DNA of 64,000 nt. Origin: a virus. Each line of letters begins with the position of its first letter. Within the stretch, counting starts at the first letter, position 1. Below, one piece after another: positions 1 through 60,600 of this stretch. Made by a program: the position numbers and the translations under genes. The notes below the pieces were generated by a model. That model saw nothing but the letters and a program-made list of their open reading frames with translations. It was not told where the DNA came from and searched no databases. The stretch is from positions 1 through 64,000 of IMG/VR virus record IMGVR_UViG_3300028146_000001, one strand, 5' to 3'.

Positions 1-147
1 TTGAAATGCGTCGTCATCAAGGAGGTTTATTGCGATGACTGCACCGAAGAAGAGGCGAGAAACAATCCGTGGGAACACGTCGAAGGCGACGAAATGGAAA
101 TCGAACAGACTGATTGGGAAGTCCAGCAAGTTGAACCGAACGAATGA
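1..147 (+). CDS. Partial hypothetical acidic phage protein (5' end at window edge)
   Basis: Open from base 1 to a TGA at 145-147, 48 codons. It is acidic, with a Cys-x2-Cys pair near the start and a Trp- and Glu-rich tail. Base 1 happens to be a TTG, but there is no room to see a ribosome site, so the gene probably begins outside the window. The next gene starts inside the stop codon (ATGA), which supports reading this frame. I do not recognise the family. Confidence 0.6.
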   Translation: MKCVVIKEVYCDDCTEEEARNNPWEHVEGDEMEIEQTDWEVQQVEPNE

Positions 148-294: not shown

Positions 295-325
295 GCCTCC
301 CGTTGCGTTGACGGGAGGCTTTTTT
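295..325 (+). terminator. Rho-independent terminator
   Basis: A 9-bp perfect stem (295-303 with 311-319) with a 7-nt loop, followed directly by six T residues (320-325). It ends the transcript of the two preceding genes and isolates the RNA unit that starts near 364. Confidence 0.9.
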
Positions 326-327
326 AT

Positions 328-355
328 TTGCTTTTCCGATTTCACGTTGTAGACT
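328..355 (+). promoter_or_regulatory. Candidate promoter of pseudoknot RNA 1
   Basis: TTGCTT (328-333) and TAGACT (350-355) are 16 bp apart. The hexamers are moderate, but the layout matches the better promoter at 60180-60208: both place the first base of a stable stem 9 bases after the -10 box, and both have ATCGT between. The match between the two copies is the main support. Confidence 0.5.
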
Positions 356-363
356 CTATCGTG

Positions 364-459
364 TCCGTGCGATTTCCAACCGAACACTCGATACTCCCAG
401 ACTTCGCGGCATCCATCTCTCGCACGGATCGGAGCATACACCGCGAGTCTGGGATTTTT
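364..459 (+). ncRNA. Predicted pseudoknotted RNA, copy 1
   Basis: Two strong stems cross. Stem A pairs 364-372 with 420-428 (9 bp, perfect). Stem B pairs 395-409 with 441-454 (14 bp, one bulged T at 404). The 5' arm of B lies in the loop of A and the 3' arm of A lies in the loop of B, an H-type pseudoknot topology. Stem B is followed by T5 (455-459), so it can act as an intrinsic terminator. The first loop carries CCAACCGAACAC (376-387), which recurs in the RNA at 60217-60307. It may be a free small RNA or a conditional leader for the gene starting at 470 or 494. I recognise no known RNA family. Confidence 0.55.
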
Positions 460-469
460 GGAATGAACA

Positions 470-892
470 ATGAAATCACTGAAAGAACAAATCATGGGTA
501 AATGTCGCCACTTCAACGGCTTGATGAATAAAGCCTGCGAAGTTGGCGTTAAATACGACGACGTTTGCACGCCATGCACAGACGGAGTTGGCAAGAATAT
601 ACCCTGTTTATTCAAAGGGGATGCCACTTGCGAAAAACGCCAAGTTGTCACGGAAGACGAGGCCGACGCTGAGATTGAGGAACACAAGAAGCGTTTCGCC
701 CGCGTTGGCATCGCTCGCAAGGCTATCGTCGATCATCTCGGCGGTCCTTGGAAGAAAGGAACGGCTGGCGCTGGCGGAAAGATTCCTTGCCCGAACTGCC
801 AAACCGGAACGCTGGCATTTAGCCGAGCCGGTAGCAATGGACACATTAACGCTGCTTGTAGCACAACTGATTGCGTTTCTTGGATGGAGTAA
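470..892 (+). CDS. Conserved phage hypothetical with Cys/His motifs
   Basis: 140 residues from 470; an ATG at 494, directly before the Cys-Arg-His-Phe-Asn-Gly motif, may be the true start because similar phage proteins begin there. The N-terminal half resembles the common phage pattern of C-x-H-F-N-G followed by spaced cysteines. The C-terminal third has a second metal-site candidate (CPNC near residue 106 and CSTTDC near 130), like a topoisomerase-type zinc ribbon. It is the first gene after the RNA element at 364-459 and runs into the ParB-like gene 5 bp later. Function unknown; nucleic-acid binding is likely. Confidence 0.8.
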   Translation: MKSLKEQIMGKCRHFNGLMNKACEVGVKYDDVCTPCTDGVGKNIPCLFKGDATCEKRQVVTEDEADAEIEEHKKRFARVGIARKAIVDHLGGPWKKGTAGAGGKIPCPNCQTGTLAFSRAGSNGHINAACSTTDCVSWME

Positions 893-1941: not shown

Positions 1942-2394
1942 TTGCGTGAGTTGAAGGCCGTACCAATGACGATCAAGAAGGCGAACAAGATCATCGCCGC
2001 TTGGCATCGCACGCACAAGCCGATTCAGGGAGGTTTATTTGCTCTGGCCGTCGCTCGCGTTTCCGATGGTGAAGTGTGCGGAGTGGCGATCATCGGCAGA
2101 CCATGCAGGAAGTTGGACAACGGCAAAGTCGCAGAGGCCACAATAGTAGCAACAGACGGGACGCGCAATGCTTGCTCGAAACTGTACGCGATGGCGAGAC
2201 GGATAACCGGCATCATGGGTTACGAAGAATTCACGACGTTGACCTTGCCGAGTGAAGGCGGCGCTTCGCTGCGTGGAGCTGGATTGTTCGATCCGCTTCT
2301 GTGTGGCGGGGGCGATTGGAATGTTCCGAGCCGTCCGCGAAAAGACAAAGGCGTGTCGAAGGAAAAGAAGCATAGGTACACGGCAAAGCTGTGA
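1942..2394 (+). CDS. XF1762-family protein
   Basis: 150 residues from a TTG start. The N-terminus (MREL-x-AVPMT, then a WHRTHKP box), the central GVAIIGRP segment and the DGTRNACSKLY-x2-ARR motif are the hallmarks of the XF1762 family, common in phages and prophages. These proteins are often compared with GNAT acyltransferases, but no substrate is known. The TTG is chosen because the family starts at this conserved residue; an AAAGG lies about 10 nt upstream. A further in-frame ATG lies 8 codons in. Confidence 0.85.
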   Translation: MRELKAVPMTIKKANKIIAAWHRTHKPIQGGLFALAVARVSDGEVCGVAIIGRPCRKLDNGKVAEATIVATDGTRNACSKLYAMARRITGIMGYEEFTTLTLPSEGGASLRGAGLFDPLLCGGGDWNVPSRPRKDKGVSKEKKHRYTAKL

Positions 2395-4948: not shown

Positions 4949-5021
4949 GCGGGTATAGCTCAAATGGCAAGAGCGCTGGCCTTCCAAGTCAGACGTGGCG
5001 GTTCGAGTCCGCTTACCCGCA
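4949..5021 (+). tRNA. tRNA-Gly (anticodon TCC)
   Basis: A complete cloverleaf. The acceptor stem pairs GCGGGTA (4949-4955) with TACCCGC (5014-5020), discriminator A at 5021. There is a D arm with GCTC/GAGC, an anticodon stem CTGGC/GTCAG with loop CTTCCAA (anticodon TCC at 4983-4985), a 4-nt variable loop and a T arm with loop TTCGAGT. CCA is not encoded. It reads GGA and could supplement host decoding of phage genes. Confidence 0.95.
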
Positions 5022-18267: not shown

Positions 18268-18794
18268 ACAAAAACCGGAACTTGCATGGAATAGGAATTG
18301 CCGTTCTTCGTAACGATTGCCCACGTCCCAGCCGGAATCGTTTCCGACGAGTCGATTTGCAATTGCTCCACGTTTACCGTTATCGCTGCGCCAGCGCTGC
18401 CGTTCGGATAAACGGTGCAAAGGTAACTGCTACCGCCTCCCGACACAACTTGCCCAGGCATCGACGAGGACGACACCGATTTCTTTGGGGGAGGCTGATT
18501 CTCCGCGTCGGACGTAAGTTCGCCCGTCGAAGGGTTGATCGAGATATTGAACACGTCGCCATTGCCACGGTTAAATCTGGCGAAAGGAACGGTTGCATCA
18601 GGCCCGAAGTCGGATAACTGTAGAGGAGCGGGAGCGCCGTTTCCGGTTGTGGCTTTGACTTGACCGGACGGGATTTCTTGGAATAGAGACGGGAGAAGCG
18701 CTACGATTTCCTGAGCGAATGAGTCCACGTCATCGCCCCACGGACCCCTGCCCATCAACCGGCCTAATTCGGATTGGTCTGTTTGAAGTGGCAT
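18264..18794 (-). CDS. Hypothetical tail-associated protein
   Basis: 176 residues from the ATG at 18794, sharing TAATG with the nozzle gene. Helical N-terminus, then a Ser/Gly linker and a beta-rich C-terminus (SYLCTVYPNGS, GTWAIVTKNGNSYSMQVPVF). The C-terminal repeat of short strands is common in phage structural proteins. Function unknown. Confidence 0.7.
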   Translation of the reverse strand: MPLQTDQSELGRLMGRGPWGDDVDSFAQEIVALLPSLFQEIPSGQVKATTGNGAPAPLQLSDFGPDATVPFARFNRGNGDVFNISINPSTGELTSDAENQPPPKKSVSSSSMPGQVVSGGGSSYLCTVYPNGSAGAAITVNVEQLQIDSSETIPAGTWAIVTKNGNSYSMQVPVFV

Positions 18795-21082
18795 TATTGA
18801 CCCCCGCCGCCATCGGTCGGAACAAAACCTTCCCAGAGCCACTGATAGAGCTTGATCTGATCGGCATTCGAGAAACCTTGCAACTCGAACTGACGATACG
18901 TGGCCCCTTGAATGAAGTAGTCTTTCCCTTGCGGCTGTTCTCTTTGTAGCCAGCCGCCTTTCTTTGTCAGATCGAGCATCAGATCGCCGCTTCCCTTAAC
19001 CGACTCAATTCCACCGCCCGCTTCGGACTTTTGATCGGCTTGCTGAATATCGGGAGTGTCGGAAAAGTCGGTAAAGAAGCGGAGGTCCGCCGTCGCCGGT
19101 TGCTTGAGCGGTTCAAACAGCATTTCAAACCGGCGCTGCATCATCTTTTCGGACGGAGCCATGCGGAGCCAAGAAGATCGGTACGTCCAACCGACACCGC
19201 CAAGCTGATACACCGACGACGTATCCGGCAGAATGTTCCAAGGCCGGTCAATCGCAAGATCGGTCCCATCTACTCCGATAATCCTTCGGACTTGTCCCTT
19301 GCCGGTTCCTTTGGTGATTGCGACGGCGGCATTGAGGATGCCCGTTGCTGGAAACGAAGCCAAAGTATCCCCCAGCGAATACGCCGCAGCATCCGTGACG
19401 ATCCCTTGCACGGTGTATCCCTTGTCAGTTCGCGCGACATCAAGCGTGCCGCTCCACGCCGCAAAGACTCTGGCATGTTGACCACCATAGTAGTTCTGAG
19501 GATTTCCGTTGAAGCCGTTGATGTAACCGGAGCAAGAACCCCCGATTGGGAAGGGGTATTCTTCTATCCAAAAACGCTGCAAACGATGTTGGTAAGCGAT
19601 AGCATGACGCGGGTATCGGTTTCCGTCCAGACAAACAAACCACCGCATCACTTCCCGCGAGCGGTCAAGCATCGAATGGAAGTTTTCCTTCCACCGCCAG
19701 TTGATATTCGCGTCAATGCCCTCCCGCTCTTGCCGGAACAAAGACGACACCTGTAGCGAAATCGGCTCGCTTCGCGAGTTCAGGTCGAACTTGTGAACGC
19801 CCAACTCGTCGAGCATGTACGCCGACTGTTCGAGGATGATCCAAGATCGCGGATTCACCGCCCCGCGTTCGCTGACGAGATACCTTCCCCCATCCGTGGC
19901 AGGGTCTTTGGAGAACGTGATCTTGTGGATGTGCTTCTTTTCCACCACGAAGATAAACGAGCCAAGCTGCATCGGCCCGACCAATTCATCTCCCGTTTCC
20001 GGCATCGACAAGCCGTTAGTCGCTGGCCACGATTGAGGTTGACCGGCCATCGTATACGCGACGACGCGGCGATAAGCGGGAGGCGGCTTGATCGCATAGA
20101 AGTTGAACAGGCTTGTCGAGTCCGCGTAGTTCTCGGTCAAAAGCAACGTCTGCGCCGTGGCGTTCACGGATGCGATTTCATAAACGCGGGTCGCTCCATC
20201 GACGTAAAGGAACCGCGTTCGCATGGTCGATTTCCAAGCCGTCCCCGCTCCCACAACGGTTTTCGAGCCGAACGTCACCGAGCAAGCGCCGATGTTGTAT
20301 TCGAGGATGCCGCAGGCAAACATCCGGTCAAGCTGTTGAGCCACCGCTTTGTAGTAATTGAGCGGTTTAGCATGGGAGTTCGCGAAAGGCTGTTGGTCCG
20401 AGTCCAGAATCGGGACCGCTTCTCTTGCTTGAAGCAAACTGTCTATGCGGGAAGAAGAGAAGGTCGATCCGGTCAAATTCGTCGTATCCACGTCCACGTA
20501 GAATACCGTCGCTTGACCGTCCGTGTTGCGGAGGATTTGCCGACGTGCCACCTTCGCTTCGGTCGGAACCTGCACGTTCGAGTAGTTGATCGTCGCGATG
20601 CCGCTGATCCATGTTCCGCCCCCGTTGTAATCGTCGGTCCCGTGGGAATTGTCCAAGGAAAAATGATTGGCGTCTACCGCCGTTATCTGCCACGTATTGT
20701 TCGCGGAAGTATTCCCGCCGACGCCGCTGATCTTGACATACGCCCCCGTGGGGAGGCCATGAGCCGCCGAGGTTATCACAATCGGAGAAGCATTGGTCGC
20801 CGCCGTAATGGTCCCCGTACTTCCAGAAGCGGTCAACGCGGCAGAGATCGGAGAGAGATCGGACACGACCAAACCGGCAGAATCGACGAAGCGGAGATAT
20901 GCGTAGTAAGTGCCGACTATTGCGCCATTGCCGACGCCTGCCATTGTCACCGCGACCGTGGGAGGATCAATTCCAATAGGAACGAAGTCGGGACCAAGAC
21001 CATCCCACATCACAGGATCGTCAATGCCGTTGAAGGCGAACAACGCCCCAGAATCTTGCTCCTGACACATGCTTTCTATCAT
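18794..21082 (-). CDS. Tail nozzle / tail tubular protein B-like
   Basis: 762 residues of beta-rich sequence typical of the T7 gp12-type propeller nozzle found next to gp11-type adaptors. Residues about 90-158 form an E1-FCCH-like module (ITAATNASPIVITSAAHGL ... VDANHFSLD). Near residue 265 is a GSKTVVGAGTAW module of a type also seen in the adaptor protein. The protein starts abruptly (the FAFNG and WDG motif is at residues 16-28); relatives I recall have an extra N-terminal segment before this. The C-terminus ends in a short Gly run. Confidence 0.75.
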   Translation of the reverse strand: MIESMCQEQDSGALFAFNGIDDPVMWDGLGPDFVPIGIDPPTVAVTMAGVGNGAIVGTYYAYLRFVDSAGLVVSDLSPISAALTASGSTGTITAATNASPIVITSAAHGLPTGAYVKISGVGGNTSANNTWQITAVDANHFSLDNSHGTDDYNGGGTWISGIATINYSNVQVPTEAKVARRQILRNTDGQATVFYVDVDTTNLTGSTFSSSRIDSLLQAREAVPILDSDQQPFANSHAKPLNYYKAVAQQLDRMFACGILEYNIGACSVTFGSKTVVGAGTAWKSTMRTRFLYVDGATRVYEIASVNATAQTLLLTENYADSTSLFNFYAIKPPPAYRRVVAYTMAGQPQSWPATNGLSMPETGDELVGPMQLGSFIFVVEKKHIHKITFSKDPATDGGRYLVSERGAVNPRSWIILEQSAYMLDELGVHKFDLNSRSEPISLQVSSLFRQEREGIDANINWRWKENFHSMLDRSREVMRWFVCLDGNRYPRHAIAYQHRLQRFWIEEYPFPIGGSCSGYINGFNGNPQNYYGGQHARVFAAWSGTLDVARTDKGYTVQGIVTDAAAYSLGDTLASFPATGILNAAVAITKGTGKGQVRRIIGVDGTDLAIDRPWNILPDTSSVYQLGGVGWTYRSSWLRMAPSEKMMQRRFEMLFEPLKQPATADLRFFTDFSDTPDIQQADQKSEAGGGIESVKGSGDLMLDLTKKGGWLQREQPQGKDYFIQGATYRQFELQGFSNADQIKLYQWLWEGFVPTDGGGGQ

Positions 21083-23518: not shown

Positions 23519-23944
23519 TCAGTTCACCTTTGGATTCTTTCCCTTGAGGAGCAAACCAGATTCAACCTGGAAAACAATATGGTCCGCCGATGGGTTATGA
23601 AGATAAATCATAGCGAGAACTTGGCCTTTTGGATCGCCGCCCGCCATAATTTCCAGCGTCCGACTCACGATGAACGCTTGGCCGGAAACAAGGTATACCA
23701 TCTCGACCGAATGAGTTCCCACGGAGAAACCAATCCCCAGCAACAGCCGCGAGCAGAATAATCCTATCGCCACTCCCGCTTTCTCCACAATCGGCATCAG
23801 GCCCGTGTAGACCACAGCATTATCCGAGGACCGACGAATCTTGATCGTGGGGACCGCATCGGGAAGTGTTGGCGTGCGGGAAGCATCGACGCAATTCAAG
23901 TACACGTCGAGCCACGTCCCAAGTTGTTGACGACCGAGAAACAT
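23519..23944 (-). CDS. Hypothetical structural protein
   Basis: 141 residues, sharing TAATG with the large fibre-like gene upstream. A beta-sandwich-like pattern (YLNCVDASRTPTLPDAVPTI ... HSVEMVYLVSGQ) resembles small immunoglobulin-like tail proteins. Function unknown. Confidence 0.65.
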   Translation of the reverse strand: MFLGRQQLGTWLDVYLNCVDASRTPTLPDAVPTIKIRRSSDNAVVYTGLMPIVEKAGVAIGLFCSRLLLGIGFSVGTHSVEMVYLVSGQAFIVSRTLEIMAGGDPKGQVLAMIYLHNPSADHIVFQVESGLLLKGKNPKVN

Positions 23945-26493
23945 TATTGAGTACCATTAACTTTCAAACCGCAAAACGAATTAGCTACAGGAGTCCCAGG
24001 TTGCAATGGTCCGGTCGATATGTCGCCTCGAAGGTCAACATTAAGAGGCTGACCGCTTCCAAAGAACCCCCACCTTCGACCGATGTTTGACGTTAGCCTT
24101 CCCGTGTTGCTAAACGCCTGTTGAATCTCAAGGTAATTGATGCCCGACACTCCGTGCGCTATGCCCGTGTCCATCGACATCGTATCAATTTCCAAGTAGC
24201 CCAAGCCGCCGTCGATTTCCACATTTCCGCCAGGAGTCGGGGAAGAATTGTTGCTTCGCGTAGCCCATATCCGGCCAAACGAACTTACCGCTTCGATTTG
24301 AACTTTTCCAGCCGCCGCAGCGCCAGCCGAAAAGCTGTAACTGGCATTGATACTTGGGATGTTTCTCTCGATCTGAACACCAGACTGGAAATCATCAGGA
24401 TCAACGTAATAATGCCGCCATGCACCGCATGTTCCAATTGCAGGATTCATTCTCTCCCAAAGAACCGGAAGATCGTCACTATGCAAGGCATCGTTGACAA
24501 GCCAAAACGCTGACACGTCGGCAATATAATCCGTGTACGGCAGTCGGTTGAATTGATTGCAGACAAGGCGAAGATTCGGATAGTTGGCGGCGATGCCATC
24601 GAATACCGGAACGATAGTGCAAACGTATAAGTAAAGCCGATCATCCGACCTTACCGTGGAATCGGCATTCCATGACTCACCGACAACTTTCAAGTTGACC
24701 CTTCCGTTTACCGTGGTCAACTGATGACCTCTCTGCGCCCCGCCCAATTCACCATTCGTTCTTGCCGTGGCGCTCCACCAATTCAGGTAGAACAACTGAG
24801 GAACAACGGTAGCGGGGTTTGAGTACACCGGAACATGAAGGAAAATGTCGGCTGGAACGCCCCATCGAACCGTGCTTTGAGCGCTCATATCCCCAGACGT
24901 ATATTGGAACGGGATCGGCGATGGAGCGTCCAGTTGCAAGAAACTTGGCGGGCCACTTATCGCCCCATTGGTCGGCAGAACCTTTACGTTCCGGTAGCCG
25001 CCGGAAACAACGTCGATGCAGTACAAGGTAACTCTGGAATCAGACGCCAGCACGCCAGGAAGATCGGCAGGCACAAAGTAAAGCCGGTTTCCGCTCCCCA
25101 AACTATCCGTCGAATTTTGAAACGCAATCGGATTAACGCTGACTCTTCCTTGATTGATCGGCGGACCTGCGCTCGTCGAAAGCAGAACTTGATCCGTCTG
25201 CGAAATCATCGCCGTGTTGATTTGCCCAGCCGGTTCGCCAGGAGGATTCGGATTGCCTGGAAACGTATAGGCGACTGGCAAATTGAAGGGGGGAGCTTCT
25301 TGCGCGATCGGCGTCTCGTTCACCCTTACCGTCACCGGAAGCGGCGTGTTCTGTATGATCGGGCCAAGAGCGCCGGAAGATGCAACCGTTCTTGTCGTCG
25401 AAATATTCCACGCTTGCGCAAGAGACTGTTCGGCGGTATCCGCTTTGGGAGGACCAAGAATTCCCGTTGGACCTGAAAGCGGAACGCCCGTCGCAACCAC
25501 GCCAGGAAGCGGACCAACGAGCGGGCCAGCCACATGATATGAAACATCAGCGCCGCCAGGATCGAGGCTTAGAAACGATCCGTCCGCATTGCCGTACCCG
25601 ACATCGGTTCTCACAATCGCGTTGGAATTTGCATTGTAAAAACCAATGCCAGCTTCCAGCAAAACGCCAGCAGACTTGATCCCATAGTAAACTTGAGCGC
25701 CGTCAGGGATCGAACTTTGCTTTTGATCGTTAAGAACCAAATCGCTCAAGCCGGAAGAATAAGTCGAACTCGTTCCGGTTGTTGGCGCTGACGGAAGAAT
25801 CGGATGCAAGACGGTGAACTTTCCGCCGCTAATGTACACTCCGTTTCCCGCCACCGGAATACTGAACGTATCGGCGGTTAGCTTGGTGATCGGGTTGGCC
25901 GGTATCGCAGCCGTCCCATTCGCCGCCGTGTTTCCCAAAACGCCGCTGATGACAACAACATCACCCGTTGAAAGTCCATGAGCAACAGACGTAATAACGA
26001 TGGGGTTGGCGTTCGTGGCATCCGTGATCTGCGAACCGGAAACAACAACAAAGGTTCCCCCAGACGTGTACGAGTGATTCCCCGTCGAGCCGACCAACGA
26101 AAATCGGTTCGCATCAACCACCGCGACAACCCACGTTCCATTCGCCGCCGTGTTCCCGACGATGCCGGTAATGGAAACGCTCATGCCACTGGTAAGACCG
26201 TGACTTGCCGACGTAACGACAATCGGAGAAGCATTCGATGCCGCCGTGATAACTCCCGTAGCCATCGAGGTAGAAGACCACGTTCCGCCCGACAAGTAAG
26301 CGCCGGACCCAGCAGCGACAATCGAAAAGTTGTTGGCGTCCACAACGGTAATGATCCAAGTTCCGTTGGCGATGGTCGGACCAACGACACCGCTAATGAC
26401 CACAGTGTTTCCCGTCGAAAGACCATGCAAGGCCGACGTGAAAATCTGGATGCCGCTGCCGTAGGTCATGTTTGAGATCGAACCAGTCGCCAT
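23944..26493 (-). CDS. Large appendage protein with three E1-FCCH-like modules
   Basis: 849 residues from the ATG at 26493, 7 nt after AAGGAG. The first 220 residues are three tandem modules of about 70 residues with the core IVVTSASHGL ... VSITGIVGNTAANGTW ... VDANxFS, the pattern assigned in phage proteins to the E1-FCCH fold. The remaining 620 residues are beta-rich and end in a Cys-containing C-terminus. Likely a tail fibre or head appendage; receptor binding is inferred. Confidence 0.75.
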   Translation of the reverse strand: MATGSISNMTYGSGIQIFTSALHGLSTGNTVVISGVVGPTIANGTWIITVVDANNFSIVAAGSGAYLSGGTWSSTSMATGVITAASNASPIVVTSASHGLTSGMSVSITGIVGNTAANGTWVVAVVDANRFSLVGSTGNHSYTSGGTFVVVSGSQITDATNANPIVITSVAHGLSTGDVVVISGVLGNTAANGTAAIPANPITKLTADTFSIPVAGNGVYISGGKFTVLHPILPSAPTTGTSSTYSSGLSDLVLNDQKQSSIPDGAQVYYGIKSAGVLLEAGIGFYNANSNAIVRTDVGYGNADGSFLSLDPGGADVSYHVAGPLVGPLPGVVATGVPLSGPTGILGPPKADTAEQSLAQAWNISTTRTVASSGALGPIIQNTPLPVTVRVNETPIAQEAPPFNLPVAYTFPGNPNPPGEPAGQINTAMISQTDQVLLSTSAGPPINQGRVSVNPIAFQNSTDSLGSGNRLYFVPADLPGVLASDSRVTLYCIDVVSGGYRNVKVLPTNGAISGPPSFLQLDAPSPIPFQYTSGDMSAQSTVRWGVPADIFLHVPVYSNPATVVPQLFYLNWWSATARTNGELGGAQRGHQLTTVNGRVNLKVVGESWNADSTVRSDDRLYLYVCTIVPVFDGIAANYPNLRLVCNQFNRLPYTDYIADVSAFWLVNDALHSDDLPVLWERMNPAIGTCGAWRHYYVDPDDFQSGVQIERNIPSINASYSFSAGAAAAGKVQIEAVSSFGRIWATRSNNSSPTPGGNVEIDGGLGYLEIDTMSMDTGIAHGVSGINYLEIQQAFSNTGRLTSNIGRRWGFFGSGQPLNVDLRGDISTGPLQPGTPVANSFCGLKVNGTQ

Positions 26494-26503
26494 CACAGAC
26501 TCC

Positions 26504-27016
26504 TTAGATAACCCCGAAGCGATACGTTTGCTCCCACGCCACACCGCTTATCGTAGCAATGCAGAGGACATCGTACCACTGACCTTGCGCATAGCCGCCG
26601 CCTTCCGTGGGCGTCAAACTGACCGTGTAGTATCCCGTGGTATTCCACGTCCCGCCCGAAGTCCACGCCCCGTTGCCGGTCGATCCGGTCAAAGAGAACG
26701 TATCCGCCGTCAGAACAATGATCGTAAACGTCCCGTTGGCCCCCGTGTTGCCAAGCGCCCCCGTGATCGTGACCTTCATTCCCGTGGTCAATCCATGACT
26801 GGCCGAGGTAATGACGATGGGAGCGGTATTCGACGCCCCCGTTACCGATCCGGTTTCTTTGAACGTGAGAGAGCCGGTCCCGCCCGATAGCAAACCGGCG
26901 TTACCGTAGACTCGATATGTCGGCGTAACCGATGACTGGATGGGAACTTGAGATGAATCAACGGTGAGAACCGGAAAGGTCATGGCATCACCAATCGGTA
27001 CGAATCCTACGAACAT
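26504..27016 (-). CDS. Appendage protein with one E1-FCCH-like module
   Basis: 170 residues; GAGGATT lies upstream of the ATG at 27016. Residues 56-124 are one module of the same type as in the next gene (IVITSASHGLTTGMKVTITG). It lies directly upstream of the three-module gene, so the two may have arisen by module duplication. Confidence 0.75.
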   Translation of the reverse strand: MFVGFVPIGDAMTFPVLTVDSSQVPIQSSVTPTYRVYGNAGLLSGGTGSLTFKETGSVTGASNTAPIVITSASHGLTTGMKVTITGALGNTGANGTFTIIVLTADTFSLTGSTGNGAWTSGGTWNTTGYYTVSLTPTEGGGYAQGQWYDVLCIATISGVAWEQTYRFGVI

Positions 27017-55157: not shown

Positions 55158-55239
55158 TATTACACCCGATTCCCCTTCATTTCCTGCCACATTGACAGCC
55201 TACGCTCACGCTCACGAATCGCACCAATGATAACGCCTC

Positions 55240-55268
55240 TTTACACTGTAAACCATTTACACTGTAAA
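55240..55268. promoter_or_regulatory. Tandem palindromic operator candidate
   Basis: Two copies of TTTACACTGTAAA (55240-55252 and 55256-55268), each a palindrome around one central base, with centres 16 bp apart. They lie about 130 bp upstream of the early promoter. TTTACACT recurs near 56550, and a looser TTTGCA-AAAC-TGTAAA is at 51225-51240 before the regulator at 51259. Confidence 0.6.
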
Positions 55269-55399
55269 CAAGGGGACAATTAACCCAGGTGTATTAGGTA
55301 CACAGTCAAGTCAATCTCCATTAAACACGATAAAAACAAGGAACAAACAACAATCAAACAACTCGGCATGAGGATTGCAAAGTATTTTTCGGAATAAAT

Positions 55400-55611: not shown

Positions 55612-55679
55612 AAGTCTGTCTATTCGCCTGTGTTGGTGAGTAGAGTTATTACCGGATTCCCTTTTTTGGAGAATGACCA

Positions 55680-55943
55680 ATGCGACCGTATGACGAGTTA
55701 GACGCGATGGAGATTGCCAATTGTGCGGAATGTCGCGCGGCACACGAACAAATAAACGCCGATCAAAGGATATTCGCGCTCTTGCGGGGATCTCTTGAGT
55801 ACGCCGAGACATGCGCGGCCGGTGGTGATACGCATGGGATTCTTGCGGCGTTATCGGACATGCGGCGTAAACTTGGAATGCCAGCTATCGACGGGGAAAG
55901 CGAATCGTGGACGGTTGCCGAATTGCTGGCGCATGCGGGTTAA
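55680..55943 (+). CDS. Hypothetical early protein
   Basis: 87 residues, TTGGAGAAT upstream. Helical with C-x2-C near residue 15. No family recognised. Confidence 0.65.
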   Translation: MRPYDELDAMEIANCAECRAAHEQINADQRIFALLRGSLEYAETCAAGGDTHGILAALSDMRRKLGMPAIDGESESWTVAELLAHAG

Positions 55944-58679: not shown

Positions 58680-58759
58680 CGCAGAGCAACCCCGCAAGGG
58701 GTTAATGCGGCCCGCATGTTGCGGCCTGTTGCAAGCCAGGGGACCACGGAGAACCGACG

Positions 58760-60179: not shown

Positions 60180-60208
60180 TTGACAAGGCCGGATTCGTGG
60201 GCAATAGT
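60180..60208 (+). promoter_or_regulatory. Consensus-like promoter of pseudoknot RNA 2
   Basis: TTGACA (60180-60185), 17-bp spacer, AATAGT (60203-60208). It begins 2 bp after the previous stop and places the RNA 5' end at the first base of stem A (60217). Confidence 0.65.
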
Positions 60209-60216
60209 AGATCGTT

Positions 60217-60307
60217 CGGCCACGGTAATGCCAACCAACACACCCCCAACCCGATCAGCAATTCTTACCGTGGCCGGAAAAGAACCTGAGACGGTTGGGG
60301 ATTTTTT
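60217..60307 (+). ncRNA. Predicted pseudoknotted RNA, copy 2
   Basis: Stem A pairs 60217-60228 with 60265-60276 (12 bp, perfect). Stem B pairs 60244-60251 with 60293-60300 (8 bp). The stems cross as in copy 1. The first loop contains CCAACCAACAC (60231-60241), matching copy 1 except for one G. Stem B is followed by A and T6 (60302-60307). The matching promoter geometry, topology, loop motif and terminator point to one RNA family used twice. It may be a free small RNA or a switch for the gene at 60319. Confidence 0.6.
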
Positions 60308-60318
60308 CATGGTGCAGA

Positions 60319-60600
60319 ATGGCAACCAAATGGACAAACCACCCAGGCGTTTTGTATCTCGAAATGGAAGTCAATTTTCTTTCGAGCGGATACTACGATG
60401 CCGGTCAAACATGCGGCCCGCCCGAAAGTTGCTACCCGCCAGAAGGTGAGGACGAACGCACGCTGGATACCATCAAGATCGGCGACAAAGAATTGCCGAA
60501 GGAACTGGCGGAAAAGCTGTTCGAGTTTTTGCAAGCGGACGTTGACGCGGTTGAAATGGAAACGCCGGAATACGAGCCGCTTGAAGACGACTATATGTAA
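60319..60600 (+). CDS. Small acidic early protein
   Basis: 93 residues from the ATG at 60319; an ATG at 60361 is an alternative, and neither has a good ribosome site. The C-terminal half is acidic (LPKELAEKLFEFLQADV). It is the first gene after RNA copy 2, so its expression may depend on read-through. Confidence 0.6.
   Translation: MATKWTNHPGVLYLEMEVNFLSSGYYDAGQTCGPPESCYPPEGEDERTLDTIKIGDKELPKELAEKLFEFLQADVDAVEMETPEYEPLEDDYM

Follow-up and report, generated by a model that had tools for sequence, protein, structure and literature searches.

Genome organization and location of the two putative leader elements

The virus record IMGVR_UViG_3300028146_000001 consists of 65,380 bases, of which bases 1-64000 form the window, the whole 64,000-nucleotide stretch of DNA analyzed here. 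Record bases 65254-65380 are an exact repeat of window positions 1-127 (127 bases), which implies that the genome is circular or permuted and 65,253 bp long; the size of this repeat also suggests an assembler k-mer overlap. Genes on the minus strand, including those encoding the terminase and portal proteins, extend from approximately 55 to 11 kb, and a second block is oriented on the plus strand from approximately 55.4 kb via the contig end to 11.37 kb. This plus-strand block encodes clamp loader, ParB-like, Erf-like, and Mom-like proteins together with HNH endonucleases, a gene content suggesting an early role.

Two regions of this early block, at 350-459 (copy 1) and 60180-60318 (copy 2), carry the same arrangement of two crossing stems ending at a T-run ahead of a gene. 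The copies had been described as independent units 60 kb apart, a distance that is an artefact of the contig cut position; on the circular map copy 1 lies 5,400 bp downstream of copy 2 on the same strand, within one early block. The preliminary description rightly placed the units near replication genes, as both copies stand in front of early or replication genes. Each copy apparently opens one early transcription unit, the two units being neighbors, and the pair is probably the product of an old duplication.

Several other features were identified in the window. A Type-P5 twister ribozyme (Rfam RF02684, 43 bits, above the gathering score) is located at 58680-58740 on the plus strand, between two early genes and approximately 1.5 kb upstream of copy 2, where it may cut the polycistronic early mRNA. 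The early block also contains a tRNA-Gly (TCC) gene (4949-5021, plus strand). Between the divergent early and late blocks, the palindrome TTTACACTGTAAA is repeated at 55239-55271 and is possibly a regulator binding site. Two large minus-strand proteins (18794-21082 and 23944-26544) match the E1_FCCH domain model (Pfam PF16190), one above and the other just below the cut-off.

Anatomy of the two copies

The features of copy 2 are as follows:

60180..60208, plus strand: promoter-like TTGACA-17-AATAGT (TTGACA 60180-60185, AATAGT 60203-60208, 17-nt spacer)
60211..60215, plus strand: ATCGT, at the same offset as in copy 1
60216..60228, plus strand: stem A 5′ arm, TCGGCCACGGTAA
60231..60241, plus strand: conserved loop, CCAACCAACAC
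60244..60251, plus strand: stem B 5′ arm, CCCCAACC
60265..60277, plus strand: stem A 3′ arm
60293..60300, plus strand: stem B 3′ arm, GGTTGGGG
60302..60307, plus strand: T6 run adjoining stem B
60319..60600, plus strand: first gene after copy 2 (93 aa, ATG 60319, without a Pfam family)

The promoter-like site begins immediately 3′ of the stop codon of the preceding gene, matches the sigma-70 consensus at 10 of 12 positions, and was the best plus-strand site in the promoter scan of 54.9-64 kb; given its distance to the -10 hexamer, ATCGT is probably where the transcript starts. Stem A consists of 12 bp (60217-60228/60265-60276), or 13 including a U-G wobble, and is crossed by the 8 bp of stem B. 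All of the elements first reported for this copy, from promoter and 8-nt interval through stem A, crossing stem B and T6 to the gene, are present. The 93-aa product of this gene has a weak match to phrog_14000.

Copy 1 follows a strong terminator and is organized in the same way:

295..325, plus strand: intrinsic terminator before copy 1 (strong, 11 bp, T6), closing the upstream unit
350..355, plus strand: -10-like TAGACT, weak as a sigma-70 site
358..362, plus strand: ATCGT
363..372, plus strand: stem A 5′ arm, GTCCGTGCGA
376..387, plus strand: conserved loop, CCAACCGAACAC
396..409, plus strand: stem B 5′ arm, CCCAGACTTCGCGG
420..429, plus strand: stem A 3′ arm
441..453, plus strand: stem B 3′ arm, CCGCGAGTCTGGG
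455..459, plus strand: T5 run adjoining stem B
470..892, plus strand: first gene after copy 1 (140 aa from ATG 470; alternative ATG 494)

Its promoter-like site, TTGCTT-16-TAGACT, has approximately 7 of 12 consensus matches by our own comparison and was absent from the promoter-scan picks. Stem A comprises 9 bp (364-372/420-428), or 10 including a G-U pair, and stem B comprises 13 bp with a single bulge. The 140-aa protein encoded downstream is cysteine-rich, and its C-terminal part matches phrog_31210. The unit that copy 1 heads also encodes a Mom-like DNA modification protein (phrog_1384; 1942-2394, plus strand), whose gene lies two genes downstream of one for a small cysteine-rich protein. 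In phage Mu, the zinc-finger protein Com controls mom at the mRNA level, and by analogy a possible link between this gene pair and Com-mom control may be worth a look.

A third copy was sought at the first early unit (55.3-55.7 kb), where a T6 run precedes the ribosome site and crossing stems are absent. The T6 run and the GGAGAATGACCAATG after it (55662-55682) resemble the T5-GGAATGAACAATG in which copy 1 ends.

Shared plan and changes in pairing

Both copies follow one order: a -10-like hexamer, 8 nt, the stem A 5′ arm, the first loop, the stem B 5′ arm, the stem A 3′ arm, the stem B 3′ arm, a single A, a run of five or six T residues (A-T5 and A-T6), and a gene that starts 10-12 nt after the U-run. 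The equal distance from the -10 hexamer to stem A, the ATCGT between them and the shared loop that had been pointed out earlier are all borne out, the interval being exactly 8 nt in both copies and the first loop carrying CCAACC(G)AACAC in each. The loop geometry is likewise similar, with spacers of 13 and 15, and 14 and 15 nt. The alignment register of the copies was taken from the shared motifs and structure, and MAFFT alignments of both copies did not recover the motif register. In this register 11 of the 18 aligned pairs are changed on both sides and none is broken, a compensatory pattern comprising 8 of 10 pairs in stem A and 3 of 8 in stem B. The covariation proposed at the outset thus stands insofar as pairing is kept despite the changed stems (11/18 pairs), but it is drawn from two paralogues only. 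Motif, spacing and structure, taken together, suggest that the copies are paralogous. A third helix, 5′ AUCG with a downstream CGAU, can be drawn in both copies, however its topological positions differ and it was dropped.

The crossing complementarity of stems A and B exceeds chance. Searching the circular genome for crossing stems with a T-run at the end of the second 3′ arm gave the two copies and one weaker match, and simulated genomes (n = 300), with thresholds a little less demanding than the strength of the weaker copy, gave an expectation of 0.017 such pseudoknots per genome. A stricter scan of real DNA, 3.83 Mb from phages and bacteria, returned three matches, the two copies and one other with a very different loop layout. 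The loop match between the copies has p = 0.004 by composition shuffle, and local alignment of the whole units has p = 0.005 when compared with shuffles and p = 0.02 when compared with random stretches of this genome. That the stems pair by coincidence in two short stretches of intergenic DNA and have no function as RNA is very improbable: the modest similarity of the sequences by themselves (p 0.005-0.02), the failure of MAFFT to find the motif register and the lack of homologues with the fold among the matches listed would fit it, however two pseudoknots, matching in geometry and position, were found against the 0.017 expected.

Search for relatives

Three gapped patterns were used for motif scans of 2.9 million viral contigs, and one for GTDB genomes. 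At least approximately 200 distinct listed sequences had ATCGT, CCAACC, and GGATTTTT in order, and none of these had both stems; the best combined stem score outside the window among the matches listed was 33, compared with 46 and 56.5 for the two copies. These motif-bearing sequences without the fold are a natural control. Further homologues with covarying stems, whose lack the preliminary description had named as evidence against its proposal, were not found in the collections scanned (for some scans, among the matches listed), and these may omit records very near this genome, so that none found differs from none existing. A whole-record motif search of 40 distant relatives gave six matches, scored on the short motif. 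With BLASTN, neither copy gave a match among phages, and copy 1 gave none among plasmids.

The Rfam 15 covariance models gave no match at the gathering score and only unrelated families below it (E up to 5), in keeping with the earlier remark that no described phage RNA was known to have this plan. The fold plan matches no catalogued RNA, and no relatives of it were found in the collections scanned (for some scans, among the matches listed). The phage itself is isolated. Relatives sought through the two downstream proteins, the Erf-like protein, the terminase, and a 1279-aa protein reached at best approximately 32% identity, and the nearest matches of the terminase share 23-27% identity with it.

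Folding and proposed function

When folding of the growing transcript was followed, stem A appeared at approximately 70 nt and stem B only once the last bases were made. Without a pseudoknot, in nested folding, the RNA can be in state A or in state B but not in both, with energies of about -21 and -34 kcal/mol in copy 1 and of -29.9 and -29.8 kcal/mol in copy 2; the minimum-energy folds favor stem B in copy 1 and stem A in copy 2, and folds of this nested kind cannot contain the two stems at once. Mutually exclusive alternative stems are the usual arrangement of an attenuator. The penalty for a pseudoknot is approximately 9-10 kcal/mol, and adding it to the separate helix energies predicts that both stems together would be favored by a few kcal/mol in each copy.

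The reading that we tentatively favor is that the copies are paralogous cis-acting 5′-leader RNAs in which stem B and the U-run form a leaky attenuator, modulated by stem A and the loop. In the model that we infer, from the transcription start and folding in the cell to attenuation and any ligand, transcription would start within or beside ATCGT, placing stem A at the extreme 5′ end. Stem A would be the first to form, keeping CCAACC(G)AACAC, rich in C and A, in an unpaired loop. Stem B would form next across this loop, and its 3′ arm would run right up to the U-run ahead of the first gene. Together, stem B and the U-run would work like an intrinsic terminator that leaks, and the level of read-through would be set by stem A or by the pseudoknot, perhaps together with a factor bound to the conserved loop. 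The position of stem B, which adjoins the U-run in both copies, points to control of transcription rather than translation, and since both stem B 3′ arms abut the U-run, control of read-through is plausible. The strong terminator just upstream of copy 1 suggests that its unit depends mainly on the leader.

Stem B followed by A-T5 or A-T6 has one trait of an intrinsic terminator, a GC-rich stem with a U-run right after it, however its loop of more than 30 nt departs from a compact hairpin with a strong U-tract. The U-tails of the two copies score 3.4 and 3.7 compared with 5.7 for the terminator at 295-319. As the U-runs are short and low-scoring and the stem B loop is long, termination may be weak. 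Counting against an attenuator are the lack of homologues among the sequences listed, the poor consensus match of the copy 1 promoter, the nested minimum-energy folds, which prefer a different stem in each copy, and the fact that no ligand or antiterminator was identified for the leaders.

A post-transcriptional leader, in which the 5′ pseudoknot controls translation of the first gene as a protein operator or protects the mRNA with its 5′ end buried in stem A, is unlikely but deserves serious weight. Stem A begins a few nucleotides from the expected 5′ end in both copies, the U-run lies just upstream of weak ribosome sites, and both copies have an upstream ATG 8-9 nt beyond the G-rich 3′ arm of stem B. 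Precedents are found in structured 5′ ends that shield mRNA from RppH and RNase E (PMC3997798), and in the gene 32 leader of phage T4, where gp32 binds a pseudoknot located 5′ of the Shine-Dalgarno sequence (PMC535899). This explanation leaves the ending of stem B at the U-run in both copies unaccounted for; moreover, the first genes encode unrelated small proteins without Pfam families, and no SSB-like product, of the kind expected of such an autoregulator, was recognized directly downstream of either copy.

That each element is instead a free-standing small RNA of approximately 100 nt, ending at the U-run and acting in trans through the conserved loop, is a slim prospect. Each has its own promoter-like site, a structured 5′ end, a terminator-like 3′ end, and a conserved loop that would be single-stranded, however the next gene begins 10-12 nt past the U-run, too tight for another promoter, and as copy 1 follows a terminator, read-through of its leader is needed for expression of its 11-kb unit. 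The preliminary suggestion of a host target reached through the shared loop found no support.

Comparison with known leader RNAs

In arrangement the units most resemble the putL/putR pair of phage HK022, with sequence compared only via BLASTN of phage records, which gave no match. Each of the two early promoters of HK022 is followed by one of these two similar RNAs, which act in cis (PMC9378689), just as the copies here, at 358-459 and 60211-60307, each follow a promoter-like site, weak in copy 1. The put RNAs bind the zinc-binding domain of the RNA polymerase beta′ subunit. They are nested two-hairpin structures of approximately 70 nt, in contrast to the crossing stems of approximately 90-95 nt with a U-run end described here. 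Antitermination of the put kind, in which the nascent leader would bind RNA polymerase and make it resistant to later terminators such as that at 295-319, seems quite unlikely. The heading of early units by two similar cis RNAs and the real terminator between the two early units speak for it, but beyond the difference in fold there would be little to read through, as only one strong plus-strand terminator was found in the early block. A further long shot is a protein-independent pseudoknot RNA that modifies RNA polymerase, put-like in function but unrelated in structure, whose CCAACC(G)AACAC loop would bind polymerase or a host factor.

The T4 gene 32 element is the closest phage leader pseudoknot found, similarly located in an mRNA leader 5′ of the ribosome site. 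It is a single element of approximately 28 nt with UUAAA repeats, located before its own gene, whereas here two copies of approximately 90-95 nt with a conserved C/A-rich loop precede unrelated genes. The preQ1 and fluoride riboswitch classes have a 5′-leader pseudoknot beside a terminator-like U-run, a combination shared with these units, but no Rfam aptamer consensus was matched and the first genes have no metabolite link. In type III toxin-antitoxin systems, the ToxI RNA is a tandem array of pseudoknot repeats before the ToxN endoribonuclease gene. The order of pseudoknot RNA, terminator, and gene is similar, however each unit here is single, and the proteins that follow match no ToxN family and no Pfam family.

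Significance

To our knowledge, few phage leader RNAs are known outside the model phages. A duplicated, structure-conserved leader at two early units, if true, would represent a testable RNA control of early transcription in an uncultured lineage, and the presence of two natural variants of one plan makes a clean assay object.
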